Program-made: the position numbers and the translations under genes | Shown: in pieces, positions 56,991 to 64,000 of the stretch | How positions within the stretch are numbered: position 1 is the first letter of the stretch | Layout of the letters: every line of letters starts with the position of its first letter | NCBI RefSeq assembly: GCF_000350165.1 | Contig: NZ_CAUI01000005.1 | Coordinates: forward strand, 620,001 to 684,000 | Reading direction: 5' to 3' | Source: Halanaerobium saccharolyticum subsp. saccharolyticum DSM 6643 | GTDB taxonomy: Bacteria; Bacillota; Halanaerobiia; Halanaerobiales; Halanaerobiaceae | DNA: 64,000 nt | Notes under the pieces: model-generated | Told to the model about the DNA's origin: nothing | Databases searched by the model: none | What the model saw: the letters and a program-made list of their open reading frames with translations, nothing else

Positions 56991-57043
56991 CTATTTGCTA
57001 GTTGAATTTATCTAATTCTATTTAGGATATTTGGCCTGTCCTA

Positions 57044-57715
57044 TTAAAAACCCTTTTTTTGACCGTCCCAGGGAGGCTCTTTTCCTTCTTTAAATTCATC
57101 TACTCCAGGACCACCTAAATCATTTAGTCGCCAAATTCCATAGATGTAGCTGATAGTTAAAACAACAATAATAGCTGGCCAGCCTAAAAGAATATTTACC
57201 CAGGCTAAGTTTAGTACTGCCTCACTAAAAAATAATCTAAGCTGAATAGTAAGCCTGAGAGCAAAGTAAACTGCCCATAAAATTGTTACCTCTCTGTAAG
57301 CAGGTTTAACATCCTGCCGCCAAAACCATTCTAAAGGCCAACCGCGGCTTAAATGACTGGCCCAGGCTGCAAGTGGTTTTCCAATCAGCACTGTTATTAC
57401 TGAAGCCAACAGAAAAAGAGTAGAAGATGTCAGAGCCGGAATAAAATAATTACTGGCGTTGTTACTCAAATATGCAAAAGAAGAAGCAAAAATTACTCCA
57501 ATTAATCCTGCTAGAGAATATTTCCAATTTTCTTTTTTAATAATTCTTCTACTAAAATTTATTAAAGCCGTAGTTACTGCCAGAATAACGGCAGTTTGAA
57601 GTCCAAAAATAGAATTGCTGACTGCATAAATTAAAGGAGGCAGCAGGGCATCAAAAGTTTTATTTAAAAAGATTGAATGTAATTCTTCTAAAATATCTTC
57701 TTTTTTAAATTCCAT
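57044..57715 (-). CDS. DUF3159-like membrane protein
   Basis: 223 residues with about six membrane helices (LLPPLIYAVSNSIFG, LAGLIGVIFASSFAYL, ALTSSTLFLLASVITVLIG and others). The C-terminal motif NDLGGPGVDEF resembles DUF3159/VC0807-type proteins, whose function is unknown. Start ATG at 57713-57715. It is a single gene between a terminator and a divergent GGDEF gene, and ends with a charged tail. Confidence 0.65.
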   Translation of the reverse strand: MEFKKEDILEELHSIFLNKTFDALLPPLIYAVSNSIFGLQTAVILAVTTALINFSRRIIKKENWKYSLAGLIGVIFASSFAYLSNNASNYFIPALTSSTLFLLASVITVLIGKPLAAWASHLSRGWPLEWFWRQDVKPAYREVTILWAVYFALRLTIQLRLFFSEAVLNLAWVNILLGWPAIIVVLTISYIYGIWRLNDLGGPGVDEFKEGKEPPWDGQKKGF

Positions 57716-57908
57716 AGGCTCAGCTCCTTATTAAATTAAAATATTTTTATTATTCTTAAAAACAGTATACATAAATTATTAAAATTTAGCAAAAATATAA
57801 AGGAATTATTTAGTTAATAAAGAATAATTAATATATAATGACATTATAATAATATAAGAGAACATTATTATAATTAAAAAAATAAAGATGAGCTGGAGAT
57901 GAGATAAG

Positions 57909-58772
57909 ATGGAACTGAGATTAGAAAAATTTAAGGTTAAATTTATTTATAGTTTAATTTACATAATTTTCTTTATTTTATTTTTTAGATTTATTTTTAT
58001 ACATATTGATGACACAGCAGATTATCTTTTTGGGCTGGCCTATTTGGGGATATTAATCCTAACAGTTCAATACATATTAAAAAATTATTATAGTCAAAAA
58101 GCCTTAATAATTTGGCTAACACAGTTAATTGTTTATATTCCTCTTTTGTTTTTAGAATACTACAATATAATTAAGATTTTCATTATAATTCAAATTTTTA
58201 TCGGAATTATTTTAAATCATCAGCAGATTAATTTATTAAAAAAGAAAAATGAAGAAATAAAGTATTTAAGCTTTCATGATGAAATGACCGGTTTATATAA
58301 TAGAAGATATTTTGAAAACAAACTGGGAGAATTAAATGATCCAGCAGAACATAATCTATCTGTAATTATTGCAGATATCAATAATCTTAAAAAAATTAAT
58401 GATAATCAGGGCCATAAAAAGGGGGATTATTATATAAAAGCAGCAGCGAATTTATTAAAATCTGAGTTAAGAGAAGAAGATATCATTTCTCGAATTGGTG
58501 GGGATGAATTTGCAATAATTCTGCCCCATACAGATAAAGCAAAATGCAAAAAAATTGTAAACAGGTTAAAAACTAAAATTGAAAATCACCCTGAAAAACA
58601 TCTTAGTATTGCTTTTGGATATGTTCATCATAATCAGCAGTATAATAGTTTAGAAGAAATGATAAAAAATGCAGATAAAAATATGTATTATAATAAAAAG
58701 AAATTTAAAGAGGAAATTAATAGAAGAAAAAACCATGTTTATCATGTTAGTAACTATAATATCTTTTATTAA
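57909..58772 (+). CDS. Membrane diguanylate cyclase
   Basis: 287 residues. Five or so membrane helices fill residues 10-105, then a GGDEF domain with intact GGDEF at 197-201 (SRIGGDEFAIILP). No sensory domain other than the membrane part is visible, and no EAL or HD-GYP domain. It probably makes cyclic di-GMP in response to an unknown membrane signal. ATG 57909. It is the third cyclic-di-GMP gene in the window. Confidence 0.9.
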   Translation: MELRLEKFKVKFIYSLIYIIFFILFFRFIFIHIDDTADYLFGLAYLGILILTVQYILKNYYSQKALIIWLTQLIVYIPLLFLEYYNIIKIFIIIQIFIGIILNHQQINLLKKKNEEIKYLSFHDEMTGLYNRRYFENKLGELNDPAEHNLSVIIADINNLKKINDNQGHKKGDYYIKAAANLLKSELREEDIISRIGGDEFAIILPHTDKAKCKKIVNRLKTKIENHPEKHLSIAFGYVHHNQQYNSLEEMIKNADKNMYYNKKKFKEEINRRKNHVYHVSNYNIFY

Positions 58773-58803
58773 AATAAAATATATAACTTGATTTTAGATC
58801 CAG

Positions 58804-58879
58804 GCATTTGTTTAACTACTTTTTCGAATTATTGGTTTTCAACTAATAAATTCAGAAGTGTTAGGCAAATGCTTTTTTT
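58804..58879 (+). terminator. Large terminator hairpin after the GGDEF gene
   Basis: GCATTTG (58804-58810) pairs with CAAATGC (58866-58872). The stem extends inward through TTTAAC/GTTAGG and an upper arm near GAATTATTGG/CTAATAAATTC. TTTTTTT follows. Confidence 0.75.
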
Positions 58880-58949
58880 GTATAATTATTAAAAAATCTT
58901 TAAATATGCTTGCCTGAATCAGATTATTAAGTTATACTGTAAATAATTA

Positions 58950-58967
58950 ATTAAAGCTTTTAATTAA
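58950..58967. promoter_or_regulatory. 18-base near-palindrome, copy 1
   Basis: ATTAAAGCTTTTAATTAA lies about 70 bases upstream of the AEC permease. The same 18 bases recur at 60179-60196 upstream of the dehydrogenase gene. It is A/T rich and near-palindromic about AAAGCTTT, as expected of an operator. Confidence 0.5.
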
Positions 58968-59033
58968 CATCCAATTTTTTATTAATTGATAGATTATTAG
59001 ATAAATAATTTTATTTACGGGGGAATGTAAAAA

Positions 59034-59942
59034 ATGGGAAATGTCAATCAAATATTTATTATATCACTAGCAGTTATCTTACTTGGTTATTTTTTGAAAA
59101 AATTAAAGATTTTAAATAAAAATGATGGGAATTCATTGGTAAAAATAATAATGAATATCACACTGCCAGCTCTAATAATAACAGTTTTTATAGATCTTGA
59201 TTTAAATGCTAATTTAATAATACTACCGCTAACAAACATTGTTTATGGATTCTTGGCCTATTTTTTAGCTAAGAAACTATTTAAAGATATTAAAATAGAA
59301 GATGCTGGTAGTTTAATTATCTCACTTCTTGGTTTTAACATAGGCTTATTTGCTTATCCTTTTATAGAAAATATCTGGGGTAAAACCGGTCTGCAGTATA
59401 TGGCATTTTTTGATATGGGAAATGCAGTTATAATATTTGGTTTAGCTTATATAACTGCAGCAAGTTATGGTCCTAAAAGAAATGAATTATCTGCGACAGT
59501 TATTACAAAAAAGCTGCTGACCTTTATTCCTCTAATGAGTTATTTATTAGCACTTTTACTTAATATCTTTAATTTTGAACTTAATTTTTATTTATTTTCG
59601 GTTCTAAAAAAAGTAGCAGGGATTAATGGGGTTTTGGTTTTACTTGTTTTAGGTATTTATTTAGAATTTAAACTTGATAGATCAGAGCTTAAAAAAATAT
59701 CAAAAGCAGTTATTGTTAAATATAGTTTTGGATTATTAGTGGGAATAGCATTGTATTTAATCTTACCATTTGGGAAACTTTTTAATGGTGTTATTTTGTT
59801 AGGAGTTGTTATGCCAACTGGCATGGCAGTAATTCCATATTCAATCGAAAATAAGTTAAACACCAAAATCAGTGGTAGTTTAGTAAATCTAACTAATATT
59901 TTAAGCTTTATATTTATGTGGCTTATTTTCAAGTTTATCTAA
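59034..59942 (+). CDS. AEC family permease
   Basis: 302 residues with about ten membrane helices, the auxin-efflux-carrier type. Signatures include NITLPALIITVFIDLD near residues 40-55, the SLLGFNIGLFAYPF segment and VVMPTGMAVIPYSIEN near the end. Bacterial members carry malate or other organic acids. ATG 59034 follows GGGGG. It stands upstream of a hydroxyacid dehydrogenase gene and shares a sequence element with it. Confidence 0.85.
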   Translation: MGNVNQIFIISLAVILLGYFLKKLKILNKNDGNSLVKIIMNITLPALIITVFIDLDLNANLIILPLTNIVYGFLAYFLAKKLFKDIKIEDAGSLIISLLGFNIGLFAYPFIENIWGKTGLQYMAFFDMGNAVIIFGLAYITAASYGPKRNELSATVITKKLLTFIPLMSYLLALLLNIFNFELNFYLFSVLKKVAGINGVLVLLVLGIYLEFKLDRSELKKISKAVIVKYSFGLLVGIALYLILPFGKLFNGVILLGVVMPTGMAVIPYSIENKLNTKISGSLVNLTNILSFIFMWLIFKFI

Positions 59943-60000
59943 AATAGTCATTAATTTTTAAATAAAAATAAAATTATTTTGATTTTTTTTAATATTCTTA

Positions 60001-60029
60001 TTGACATCTAAAAATTATTATCCTATAAT
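60001..60029 (+). promoter_or_regulatory. Consensus promoter with a long leader
   Basis: TTGACA (60001-60006), a 17-base spacer and TATAAT (60024-60029), both perfect. The dehydrogenase gene begins 240 bases later. The 326-base gap (59943-60268) contains no gene; the AT-rich leader has AAAAGAGTT/AACTCTTTT (60045-60053 with 60088-60096) and the copy-2 repeat. Confidence 0.75.
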
Positions 60030-60178
60030 ATAAACAAGTTAATTAAAAGAGTTAATCAATATCAAATATAGTAAAACTTAATTAATAAACTCTTTTATAA
60101 AGTTTTAAAGGTTCAAAAAAGATGATGAGTTATTATATTCATAATTTTATTTTTAATTATATTTTTTTTGAGAGTTTG

Positions 60179-60196
60179 ATTAAAGCTTTTAATTAA
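60179..60196. promoter_or_regulatory. 18-base near-palindrome, copy 2
   Basis: ATTAAAGCTTTTAATTAA, identical to copy 1 at 58950-58967, lies about 150 bases downstream of the promoter and 73 bases before the dehydrogenase start. Confidence 0.5.
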
Positions 60197-60268
60197 ACCT
60201 ATTTCAAAAGTTGAATTAGTTTTAGGAAAACAGTTAAATATTTTAATAATTAGTGGGAGGTTCTAAAG

Positions 60269-61132
60269 ATGAATAAGATTGGTTTTATTGGTCTGGGAAT
60301 TATGGGAGAGTCAATGTGTGCAAATTTGCTAAAAAAAAGAGATGAAGAAATTTTAGTTTATGACCTCAATGAAGAAAAAATTGAAATGATGGTTAAACAG
60401 GGTGCTGTCAGAGCAGCTTCTAATCAAGACTTAGCAGCAAAGGCAGATATTATAATTTCTATGGTACCAAAAGGAGAGCATGTAAAGGCAGTTTATAATG
60501 AAATTGCTGAAGAATTAAATGAAGATAAAATTTGGATTGATATGAGTACTATAAATCCAGCTATTTCAAAAGATATTGCAGCAGAAGTAAAGAAAAAGGG
60601 ATCAGTAATGGTTGAGGCTCCAGTAGTTAAAAGTAAATCTGCAGCAGAAGCTGGTACTTTAGGTATATATTTTGGTGGAGATAAAGAAGTTTATAATCAG
60701 GTCAAAGATCTCCTATTATGTATGGGAGAAAACATAATTCATCTTGGCGATAACGGTTCTGGTTTAATGATGAAAATTTGCCATAATATGTTGGTTGGAG
60801 AGGTTCAAAATGCAGTTAATGAGATGATGACTCTGGCCCAAAAATCAGATATTGAAATTGATGATTTTGCTAAAGCAATTTCATATGGTGGAGGCCAAAA
60901 CTTTTATTTAGATGCTAAGGCAGAAAGTATTAAAAACAGAGACTTCAGCACAGCTTTTTCTGTAGAAAACATGAATAAAGATGTAAACATTGCAGCTGAA
61001 ATTAAAGAAGATTTAAATCTTAACTTACCTGGAATTGATCTGGTAAAAGATGTTTATCAGAAGGCAATGGAAGAAAATTATGGGAAAGAAGACTTTTCAG
61101 CTTCTATTAAAGCGGTAGAAAAAAGACTTTAA
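60269..61132 (+). CDS. 3-hydroxyisobutyrate dehydrogenase-family reductase
   Basis: 287 residues. The Rossmann motif is GFIGLGIMGESMC (5-17), the substrate motif APVVKSKSAAEAGTLG is in the middle, and the catalytic lysine is K169 in MKICHNM. The family includes tartronate semialdehyde reductase (GarR) and sulfolactaldehyde reductase as well as the namesake. The substrate is open. ATG 60269 follows GGGAGG. The isomerase-like gene starts 77 bases later. Confidence 0.88.
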   Translation: MNKIGFIGLGIMGESMCANLLKKRDEEILVYDLNEEKIEMMVKQGAVRAASNQDLAAKADIIISMVPKGEHVKAVYNEIAEELNEDKIWIDMSTINPAISKDIAAEVKKKGSVMVEAPVVKSKSAAEAGTLGIYFGGDKEVYNQVKDLLLCMGENIIHLGDNGSGLMMKICHNMLVGEVQNAVNEMMTLAQKSDIEIDDFAKAISYGGGQNFYLDAKAESIKNRDFSTAFSVENMNKDVNIAAEIKEDLNLNLPGIDLVKDVYQKAMEENYGKEDFSASIKAVEKRL

Positions 61133-61209
61133 TTTAAAATAAATCATTTAATTTTAAAAATTAATAGATATATCTTTTAATTAATATTATAATGTGGAGG
61201 AAGACAATT

Positions 61210-62526
61210 ATGAAAAAGGAAATTAAATTAGGAATTGTTTGTTTAGGTAGAAAAACATTTGATTTCGAAGCAGCGAAAGATTTATATGCTGATATTCAAA
61301 AAGACATAAAAGAAATCGAGAATATAGAGTATACAATAATTGAAGAATTGGTAATCGAGGTAGAAGATGCTCAGGCAGCAGCAGAAAAATTAAATTCAGC
61401 TAATGTTGATGCAGTAGCAGTAATTAGCGGAACTTTTCATTTAGGTCATCTGATCCTTGAGATTGATAAAGTCTTAAGAAAACCAATACTTTTATGGGGA
61501 TTAAATGAACTACCTTATAATGGTGGTAAAATTAGATTAAATTCAGTCTGTGGAGTTAATTTAAATTCATCCAACCTTTATAAATCAGGTAATAGAAAAT
61601 ACCACGTTAATATTGGGGATAAAATTGATGAAGATTGGATTGATGCAATTAGAATAAATACTGCCTTAAAAAATGCTAAAATTGGTATTTTAGGCTATAG
61701 AGCCAAAGGCTTTTTTAATCTTTCAATGGACGAATTAAATAGTTTTGATCAAACAGGACTTTTAATCGACCATTATGAATTAAGTGATTTAATGAATTAT
61801 CAAGTTAGTGATGATGAAGTTAAAGCGCGAGAAGAACAGCTTAAAGATATTTTTGATATCTCAGGGATTAATGAAACTCAGCTAAACAAAGTTGCAAACT
61901 TAAGTGCCAAATTTAAAAACTTTATTGATGATAATAATTTATCTGCACTTGCAGTTAGATGCTGGCCGGAGTTTGCTGATAATTTTGGTATTTCTCCCTG
62001 TGCGGCAATGTCACTGCTGCAGTCAGAAGATTATATTATAGCCTGTGAAGGTGATGTAGAAGGCGCAATGTCAATGTTAGCTCATCAGGCCGTTGGTGCA
62101 GAAACACCATTTTTGGCAGATTTATCACAAGTTGATCTCGAAGAAGACTATGCTCTTTTATGGCACTGTGGAGTAGCTCCCTGTAATTTATGGGATGGCA
62201 AATGTAATATTGCTCTTGATAGTTATTTTGCTGGAGGTAGAGGAGTTACAGCAGACTTTGTAATGAAAAGTGATGATTTTTCTGTACTAAGATTTGATTC
62301 TGCTCAGGGAAAATATCGAGTCTTTTTACAAAAAGGTGAAGGTATTGAAATGGAAAAAGAATTAAAAGGTACCTACTTTAAAGGTAGATTTGAAAAGAAT
62401 ATTAATGAAGTCCTGGATATGGTAGTCAAAAAAGGGGTAGCACATCATATTTCTGTAGTTTATGGAGATTACACAGCAGCTTTTGAGATATTTGCAGATC
62501 TTAAAAATTGGGAAGTAATTAGATAA
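61210..62526 (+). CDS. L-fucose/arabinose isomerase-like protein
   Basis: 438 residues. Conserved acidic positions E280 (ACEGDVEG) and D304 (TPFLADL) are 24 apart, as E337 and D361 are in E. coli FucI; H319 (LWHCG) is nearby. The protein is shorter than FucI (591). It may isomerise a sugar or sugar acid between aldose and ketose forms. ATG 61210 is used because ATG 61192 overlaps the GGAGG site (61196-61200). It lies next to a reductase and a symporter gene. Confidence 0.8.
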   Translation: MKKEIKLGIVCLGRKTFDFEAAKDLYADIQKDIKEIENIEYTIIEELVIEVEDAQAAAEKLNSANVDAVAVISGTFHLGHLILEIDKVLRKPILLWGLNELPYNGGKIRLNSVCGVNLNSSNLYKSGNRKYHVNIGDKIDEDWIDAIRINTALKNAKIGILGYRAKGFFNLSMDELNSFDQTGLLIDHYELSDLMNYQVSDDEVKAREEQLKDIFDISGINETQLNKVANLSAKFKNFIDDNNLSALAVRCWPEFADNFGISPCAAMSLLQSEDYIIACEGDVEGAMSMLAHQAVGAETPFLADLSQVDLEEDYALLWHCGVAPCNLWDGKCNIALDSYFAGGRGVTADFVMKSDDFSVLRFDSAQGKYRVFLQKGEGIEMEKELKGTYFKGRFEKNINEVLDMVVKKGVAHHISVVYGDYTAAFEIFADLKNWEVIR

Positions 62527-62561
62527 CTAATATAATTTTATTATAAAACTAAAAAATACAT

Positions 62562-62583
62562 ACAATTAATCATGATTAATTGT
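62562..62583. promoter_or_regulatory. Perfect 22-bp palindrome upstream of symporter gene
   Basis: The segment 62562-62583 (ACAATTAATCA then its exact inverse TGATTAATTGT) reads the same on both strands. It lies about 125 bases before the symporter ATG and 56 bases before a possible TATAAT (62639-62644). It is a likely regulator binding site. Confidence 0.55.
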
Positions 62584-62707
62584 TATTAGCTTAAGTTGAA
62601 AAAATTTAATTGGAAAAAAATAATAATTTAGCCCTCTCTATAATAATAATAAGAATAATACAAGATGAGAGTTCAAAAAATACTCATTATTAACAGGGGG
62701 AATAAAA

Positions 62708-64000
62708 ATGGATATAACTTACACATTAGTAACAGCAGCGATTTTTATGGGATTGGTTGCCTGGGTTTCTTATATAAAAACAAAAGGTGAAGTTTCAGAT
62801 TCAGATGGATATTTTTTAGCTGGTAGAGGTTTAACTGGAATTTTTATTGCAGGTTCATTACTTTTGACAAATTTATCGGCAGAACAATTAATTGGCTTAA
62901 ATGGCCAGTCATATCGTTTAAACTTATCAAATATGGGCTGGGAAGTTACAGCTGGAGTAGCAATTATTATCTTTGCTCTTTATCTACTTCCTAAATATTT
63001 AAGAGGGGCTTTTACAACCTTACCTGGTTTTTTAAGTGATCGTTATGATGAGGGTGTAAGAAGACTTTCGGTATATTTATTTATGATGGGTTATGTTTTT
63101 GTAACTATCCCTTCAGTCTTATATTCCGGCTCACTTGCAGTCTTAAGATTATTTGATGTACCAACATTATTCAATATATCTTATGCACAATCAGTCTGGG
63201 TAGTAGTCTGGATTGTAGGAATTATCGGATCAATTTATGCAATCTTTGGAGGCCTTAAGGCGGTTGCAGTTTCTGATACAATTAACGGAATGGGACTTTT
63301 AATAATTGGTATTTTAATGCCGATCCTTGGCTTTGCCGCGCTTGGTGATGGCAGTGTGATAGAGGGTATGAAATATATTACAATTAATCACGCAGATAAG
63401 TTAAATGCAATCGGTGGTCCCAATGATTCAATTCCATTTGGAACCTTATTTACCGGGATGATTTATGCTAACTTATTTTACTGGGGTACCAACCAGTATG
63501 TAATTCAGAGAACTTTAGGTGCTAAAGATCTGGCTCAAGGTCAGAAAGGTGTTATCATTACAGGATTCTTTAAAATCTTAGTACCATTTATGATGATGAT
63601 TCCTGGAGTTATTGCCTTTCACCTTTATGGAGCCGATATGGCCTCAGTTGACTTAGCTTTTCCAACCTTAGTCAGTGATTTATTACCAACTGCCTTATCT
63701 GGTTTCTTCCTAGCTGTGCTTTTAGGAGCGGTCTTAAGTTCATTTAACTCACTTTTAAACAGTGCTGCTACAATGTTTGTTTTAGATATTTATAAACCAC
63801 ATTTTAATCCAGATGCAGATGATGCAAAGCAGATAAAAGTAAGTAAGATTTTTGGAATTATTGTTGCTCTGATTTCCTTTGTAGTTTCTCCAATGCTGAT
63901 GCACGCCCCAGATGGAGTTTGGGATTTAATTAGAAGTTTCACCGGTTTTTTCAATATCCCAATTATAGTTCTTGTAATGGTTGGAGTTTTAACCAGAAAA
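62708..64000 (+). CDS. SSS family sodium:solute symporter, 3' end outside window
   Basis: 431 codons are open to the window end, so the gene continues beyond it. About ten membrane helices are visible. The SGLT-type stretch FYWGTNQYVIQRTLGAKDL and the Na-site-like SSFNSLLNSAATMFVLDIY helix identify the family. It imports a sugar or related solute with sodium. ATG 62708 follows GGGGGG. It probably serves the isomerase/reductase module just upstream. Confidence 0.9.
   Translation, partial: MDITYTLVTAAIFMGLVAWVSYIKTKGEVSDSDGYFLAGRGLTGIFIAGSLLLTNLSAEQLIGLNGQSYRLNLSNMGWEVTAGVAIIIFALYLLPKYLRGAFTTLPGFLSDRYDEGVRRLSVYLFMMGYVFVTIPSVLYSGSLAVLRLFDVPTLFNISYAQSVWVVVWIVGIIGSIYAIFGGLKAVAVSDTINGMGLLIIGILMPILGFAALGDGSVIEGMKYITINHADKLNAIGGPNDSIPFGTLFTGMIYANLFYWGTNQYVIQRTLGAKDLAQGQKGVIITGFFKILVPFMMMIPGVIAFHLYGADMASVDLAFPTLVSDLLPTALSGFFLAVLLGAVLSSFNSLLNSAATMFVLDIYKPHFNPDADDAKQIKVSKIFGIIVALISFVVSPMLMHAPDGVWDLIRSFTGFFNIPIIVLVMVGVLTRK

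Follow-up and report, generated by a model that had tools for sequence, protein, structure and literature searches.

Gene content of the cluster

The window, a stretch of 64,000 nucleotides from Halanaerobium saccharolyticum subsp. saccharolyticum DSM 6643, ends within a group of genes that begins at 59034 with an AEC permease and continues with a reductase, an isomerase and a sodium:solute symporter (SSS), followed past the window end by genes for a GH31 protein, a DUF4867 protein, a kinase, a class II aldolase and a ROK-family protein. The genes that the argument needs are as follows.

59034–59942, + strand: AEC-type permease (PF03547; Pfam 39.6 bits, cut-off 25.7)
60269–61132, + strand: NAD-dependent reductase of the 3-hydroxyisobutyrate/tartronate semialdehyde/sulfolactaldehyde reductase superfamily (NCBIfam matches below the equivalog cut-offs)
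61210–62526, + strand: proposed SqvD/SftI-like sulfoquinovose isomerase (fucose isomerase C-terminal family; NF048012 212.1 bits, cut-off 700)
62708–64000, + strand: SSS symporter, extending beyond the window end (PF00474; NF007790 706.6 bits for the full protein, cut-off 401)
69579–70775 on the window's scale (15580–16776 of L004), outside the window, at the opposite end of the cluster: ROK-family regulator gene, working name SqvR

Judged from their sequences, these genes probably form a cluster of the sulfo-EMP2 type for sulfoquinovose (SQ), a sulfur-containing sugar that plants and algae produce. The GH31 protein scored 1026.9 bits against NF007746, a model that takes its name from E. coli YihQ (cut-off 553), and 902 bits against E. 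coli YihQ itself, and when aligned with solved sulfoquinovosidases it was identical at R301, W304, Y508 and D472, which we take to be sulfonate-binding or catalytic residues of YihQ. The cluster also encodes a class II aldolase (PF01116, 327.4 bits), a PfkB/ketohexokinase-type kinase (PF25270, 253.1 bits; its solved relatives are weak) and the DUF4867 protein (PF16161, 252.3 bits), which would correspond to SqvB, a putative AllA-like mutarotase. Because their scores fell below curated equivalog cut-offs, the names of the isomerase and reductase are proposals: the reductase reached 175.1 bits against the sulfolactaldehyde reductase model (cut-off 348), a superfamily match only, and its best solved relative was tartronate semialdehyde reductase at 152.4 bits, with sulfolactaldehyde reductase 6sm7 at 134.4 bits, while the isomerase was also slightly under the cut-off of PF02952 (27.8 versus 29.3 bits). 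We took the isomerase start as 61210 (the ORF tool lists 61192). Close homologues of the reductase were present in 3 of 41 relatives, the genome itself included.

Published sulfo-EMP2 clusters of Bacillus urumqiensis and Megamonas rupellensis contain YihQ, an SqvD isomerase of the fucose-isomerase family, a kinase (SqiK) and a class II aldolase (SqiA), with reduction to dihydroxypropanesulfonate (DHPS) in anaerobes, as described in the available portions of two reviews (PMC9594981, PMC12890257). The Halanaerobium gene set matches this type and differs by its SSS symporter, a candidate importer, and by its AEC permease, which may export the sulfonate end product, DHPS. Of the 82 surveyed loci (the best 80 of 132 relatives plus 2), 7 had an AEC homologue next to the SQ isomerase, in bacteria and archaea alike: the window's cluster, L011, L027, L043, L064, L075 and L087.

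An 18-base repeat and its 21-bp near-palindrome

The initial annotation had pointed to an identical 18-base element upstream of the permease and the reductase, and we recovered ATTAAAGCTTTTAATTAA at 58950–58967 and 60179–60196, both copies on the + strand and intergenic, with gaps of 66 bases to the permease start (59034) and 72 bases to the reductase start (60269). Rather than many copies scattered through coding DNA, a scan of all 2,871,925 bases of the genome, allowing one mismatch, found these two exact copies only, together with a single one-mismatch copy (L003) inside a coding frame. With up to three mismatches allowed, the window held 9 matches against 1.96 expected, a count that 0 of 100 shuffles reached. 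The argument that an exact match of 18 bases is in itself unlikely was overstated, since the window contains four direct exact pairs of at least 18 bases (mean 0.36 and maximum 3 in 200 first-order resamples); this pair is the only one less than 2 kb apart (0.04 expected). The other three pairs, of 18–19 bases (24523/56928, 28981/41135 and 40000/53042), lie 12–32 kb apart and are probably chance repeats.

A 21-bp near-palindrome, TTRATTAAA-N3-TTTAATYAA, has the 18-mer as its core; its 9-bp arms flank three bases, and this longer pattern has a third copy (O_R1) that was absent from the initial list. The predicted operators and the promoters beside them are the following.

58910–58938, + strand: sigma-70-like promoter of the AEC permease (TTGCCT-17-TATACT, 9/12 consensus matches)
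58947–58967, no strand assigned: predicted operator O_P (TTAATTAAA-GCT-TTTAATTAA; perfect 9-bp arms, 0 mismatches), containing the first 18-mer
60001–60029, + strand: putative promoter of the reductase operon (TTGACA-17-TATAAT, 12/12 consensus matches)
60039–60059, no strand assigned: predicted operator O_R1 (TTAATTAAAAGAGTTAATCAA; 1 mismatch to TTRATTAAANNNTTTAATYAA)
60176–60196, no strand assigned: predicted operator O_R2 (TTGATTAAA-GCT-TTTAATTAA; 0 mismatches), containing the second 18-mer

A fourth, weaker copy (two mismatches) lies 25 nt before the start of the ROK gene, about 9.3 kb past the second copy. Because a scan of 58700–60300 returned 13 promoter-like sites versus 13.1 in shuffles, the match of the permease promoter alone proves nothing, and the argument is its position 8 bases before O_P. 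The geometry is the same at both promoters, with O_P beginning 8 bases and O_R1 beginning 9 bases after the respective −10 hexamer, and both operators would thus be expected to cover the transcription start. The centers of O_R1 and O_R2 are 137 bp apart; we do not claim DNA looping between paired sites, as the corresponding distances of 137 (window), 85 (L027) and 152 bp (L011) have no common helical phase.

Searching the genome with TTRATTAAANNNTTTAATYAA at up to two mismatches returned 34 places (2 with no mismatch, 6 with one and 26 with two), and the two perfect ones were O_P and O_R2. As for further copies before related genes, for which the initial annotation had proposed to look, 4 of the 34 places fall in this cluster, all before genes. 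The pattern written backwards matched 26 places in the same genome, and most two-mismatch places outside the cluster are therefore background. A wider regulon in this genome was rejected: four of the five one-mismatch places outside the cluster lie in, at the end of or overlapping coding frames (L017, L018 and L019 in or at the end of frames, L016 overlapping the end of a guaB-like frame), and the only intergenic one, L015, which precedes a 5′-nucleotidase-like gene, was left out of the proposed regulon.

Two other repeats lie near these genes. At 58804–58879 an inverted repeat (GCATTTGTTTAAC ... GTTAGGCAAATGC) with a loop too long for the scanner is followed by seven T and is probably the terminator of the upstream GGDEF gene, and a perfect AT-rich palindrome, CAATTAATCATGATTAATTG, stands between the isomerase and SSS genes (8569–8588 of L004, about 62568–62587) in a layout unlike that of the operator.

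Sites in other sulfoquinovose-isomerase loci

For a survey across species we searched with an alignment of the isomerase and took the best 80 of 132 relatives plus L004 and L011 (82 loci; L010 was dropped as a duplicate of L027), counting as a site any match to the 21-bp pattern with up to two mismatches and as a close ROK any homologue of at least 130 bits. Among these 82 loci, the 17 with a close ROK contained 35 sites (0.85 expected), distributed over 16 of the 17, and all 35 were intergenic, although intergenic bases make up 9.7% of the sequence. The other 65 loci contained 5 sites in 5 loci, comprising 1 site in the 20 loci with a weaker ROK (0.4 expected) and 4 in the 45 without a ROK (1.1 expected). 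L055 has a ROK at 292 bits and no site. The threshold of 130 bits was set after we had seen that L033 and L076, with ROK scores of 105–110 bits, were free of sites; counting both as close-ROK loci gives sites in 16 of 19 loci versus 5 of 63. Nor are the loci independent of one another, L100 and L102 being near relatives. Intergenic GC was 0.28 in the close-ROK loci versus 0.45 in the rest, and when the comparison was confined to loci with GC below 0.43 the association was clear but weaker (16/16 versus 4/14; Fisher P 3e-5, kinship ignored). In L048, one of those four exceptions, the contig is truncated immediately upstream of a transaldolase gene and carries the site at base 71; its ROK may therefore lie off the contig.

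Two controls addressed the pattern itself. In intergenic DNA only, and with the training locus left out, the pattern had 31 sites in 30.7 kb, whereas palindromes with permuted arms (1000 draws, 543 distinct) had a mean of 0.8 and none reached 31; the highest-scoring permutations (29, 29 and 27 sites) were near-copies of the real arm. Varying the spacer from 0 to 8 gave 31 sites at a spacer of 3 and 0–4 at every other length.

Each of the 35 sites has a gene starting beside it. Some of these genes encode the ROK protein, reductase, isomerase and permease; others include genes for transaldolase/FSA, transketolase, RpiB-like isomerase, iron-ADH, aldehyde dehydrogenase, TauE and solute-binding proteins (the gene labels were partly seeded from genes beside sites, with independent support from Pfam for 10 proteins). 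The families of this second group are reported for the sulfo-TAL and sulfo-TK pathways in the available portions of PMC9594981, PMC12890257 and PMC11659671. Sites thus stand before genes of all three pathway types, sulfo-EMP2, sulfo-TAL and sulfo-TK. The ROK gene itself is preceded by sites in L004, L027, L029, L030, L034 and L089. In H. kushneri (L010/L027), sites with one or two mismatches stand before the reductase operon (two) and before the ROK gene (two, overlapping), and in the genome G025 (L011) two perfect sites stand before the reductase operon, directly after the ROK gene, one of them before the promoter and the other about 100 bp after it, which shows that operator geometry varies. 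The permease gene of both relatives lies inside the reductase operon without a site of its own, whereas the window's permease has its own promoter and its own site.

Of the 22 places with at most one mismatch in eight whole genomes from which these loci come, 13 fell in SQ loci, which span 152 kb of about 26.7 Mb (0.57%); G042 had no such place, and G047 had two, both outside SQ loci. In a blind test the ROK protein was the sole query against 206 genomes from the family to which G045 belongs; it gave five hits, three of them new. In these three genomes 5 of the 6 genome-wide places were no more than 5 kb away from the ROK gene. Clear SQ genes were present at two of the three loci, and in the stretch taken the third (L123) showed only an RpiB-like gene. 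The evidence rests on the location of the sites and not on their number, because the backwards pattern had 9 matches versus 6 for the real pattern in the blind test and 26 versus 34 in the window's genome.

A candidate ROK repressor of sulfoquinovose catabolism

The product of the ROK gene at the far end of the cluster scored 168.4 bits against PF00480 (cut-off 22.9), with winged-helix matches at its N terminus, and is 54–56% identical to two relatives, the helix-turn-helix being conserved. Among 38 genomes from the order, 4 had close homologues; a phylum-wide search at E 1e-60 hit 1 of 299 genomes, namely its own, in a sparse sample. The closest solved relative of a three-sequence ROK profile was Lmo0178 of Listeria (5f7p, 5f7q, 5f7r; 161.7 bits), for which we know of no link to SQ.

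The initial annotation had suggested that the permease and reductase genes answer to a single regulator, naming neither it nor its substrate. That suggestion is supported by the recurrence, in many anaerobic bacteria, of the same pattern before SQ genes beside a homologous ROK gene. From the sites we observed, where they lie, how they are conserved and how they occur together with this ROK subfamily, we infer both names: we put at roughly 85% the probability that the 18-mer is the core of a palindromic operator for the cluster's ROK repressor, which would be lifted by SQ or sulfofructose and serve SQ catabolism. When substrate is absent, a ROK dimer would occupy the operators that closely follow the −10 hexamers at the permease and reductase promoters, blocking transcription, and would also bind upstream of its own gene, giving autoregulation. 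Import of SQ or sulfoquinovosyl glycerol would let SQ or sulfofructose bind the kinase-like domain, whereupon the repressor would leave and the operon would be expressed; the sulfoquinovosidase, isomerase, kinase, class II aldolase and reductase would then degrade SQ by a route of the sulfo-EMP2 type, and the AEC permease may export DHPS. That the regulator represses and is released by a sugar is suggested by the sites over the expected transcription starts, by the predicted autoregulation and by the habits of ROK regulators as given in the available portions of PMC3750489 and PMC2873477.

It is unlikely that the palindrome is instead the operator of a regulator encoded elsewhere, the ROK neighbor being incidental. 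Binding of the operator by this ROK protein is our deduction, the genome encodes at least five further ROK-like proteins (the next best paralogue at 31% identity), and paralogues might share similar AT-rich sites; however, the sites track the close ROK homologue (16/17 versus 5/65 of the 82 loci, the best 80 of 132 relatives plus 2), they precede the ROK gene itself in several species, and searches of new genomes with the ROK protein alone reach the same sites. An operator-like site with two mismatches (449711–449731 of contig C5 of genome G000; L021) does lie between the ROK paralogue of 31% identity and galE, and related ROK proteins may therefore share the motif or use similar sites.

About as unlikely is that the ROK pairing is right but the cluster serves a sugar or sulfonate other than SQ. 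The reductase, isomerase and aldolase score below curated equivalog cut-offs and the kinase has weak solved relatives, but the GH31 protein exceeds the YihQ cut-off (1026.9 versus 553 bits), aligns with E. coli YihQ at 902 bits and has R301, W304 and Y508 in place. In other species, moreover, genes for this isomerase and for DUF4867 are accompanied by those for transaldolase, transketolase, RpiB-like isomerase, iron-ADH and TauE, families reported for sulfo-TAL and sulfo-TK.

An action of the element in RNA, as a leader hairpin, is very improbable. The leader copy at 60166–60206 folds at −7.9 kcal/mol (z −3.07), and a DNA palindrome will in any case fold once transcribed; we rejected an RNA element because folding of the two remaining copies is weak (−1.5 and −2.4 kcal/mol) and no Rfam family matched at the gathering threshold in 57000–64000. 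The asymmetric center also occurs in both orientations relative to the gene, sites stand between divergent genes, and one site of L011 lies before the promoter and not in a leader. Chance repetition in AT-rich DNA, for which the four direct pairs of exact 18-mers or longer in the window might speak, was rejected as barely credible, because corresponding positions in other species carry the element and because the survey and the permuted-arm and spacer controls speak against it.

The proposed regulator resembles known ROK sugar repressors (XylR of Firmicutes; XylR, TreR, GluR, BglR, ManR, IolR and ChiR of Thermotoga), which also combine a winged helix with a kinase-like domain, and which likewise are encoded inside the cluster they regulate and have AT-rich inverted-repeat operators before transport and catabolic operons. 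The XylR consensus of C. acetobutylicum, C. beijerinckii and A. metalliredigens, ACTTattAAAnnnnnTTTaaAAAgt (available portion of PMC2873477), has the AAA-gap-TTT core in common with the pattern described here, with a gap of 5 rather than 3 and a different arm. The repressors covered in the part of PMC3750489 available serve xylose, glucose, trehalose and inositol, in contrast to the sulfosugar catabolism proposed here. CsqR/YihW of the E. coli yih genes is likewise the local transcription factor of an SQ cluster that includes YihQ, but it belongs to the DeoR family and governs a non-orthologous sulfo-EMP enzyme set (available portions of PMC5816610 and PMC10991401).

We regard it as likely that one ROK subfamily and one 21-bp operator control the sulfo-EMP2, sulfo-TAL and sulfo-TK pathways from Halanaerobia to Clostridia, the enzymes having been swapped and the switch kept. 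Because the three pathway types share only SQ and sulfofructose as intermediates, one of these is probably the inducer. If this reading is right, the conserved operator offers a direct test of pathway membership and a sensor for SQ, and it could help to locate SQ genes and exporters that annotation has missed; among transporters of no known role it points to the AEC permease and the SSS symporter. The proposed regulon would belong to a known kind, the local ROK regulon. The openly accessible papers that we searched described no ROK-family or NagC-type SQ regulator. The words regulator and repressor are absent from the sulfo-EMP2 reviews PMC9594981 and PMC12890257, as is ROK from the latter; in PMC12965863 SQ and ROK both appear, ROK there denoting kinases; the text seen of PMC11659671 describes a repressor candidate in a sulfo-TK/TAL cluster with its family unnamed; and among the matches listed in a search on SQ regulons, the SQ-titled papers concern E. 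coli.

The survey also turned up nine contigs assigned to Asgard-archaeal MAGs, eight from Lokiarchaeota/Lokiarchaeia and one from Sigynarchaeota (L040, L041, L043, L046, L056, L064, L075, L080 and L096). Literature naming sulfoquinovose and Lokiarchae together carried titles on other subjects. The isomerase of these contigs is 56–62% identical to the SQ isomerase, and in six of the nine a YihQ-like GH31 gene directly follows it.
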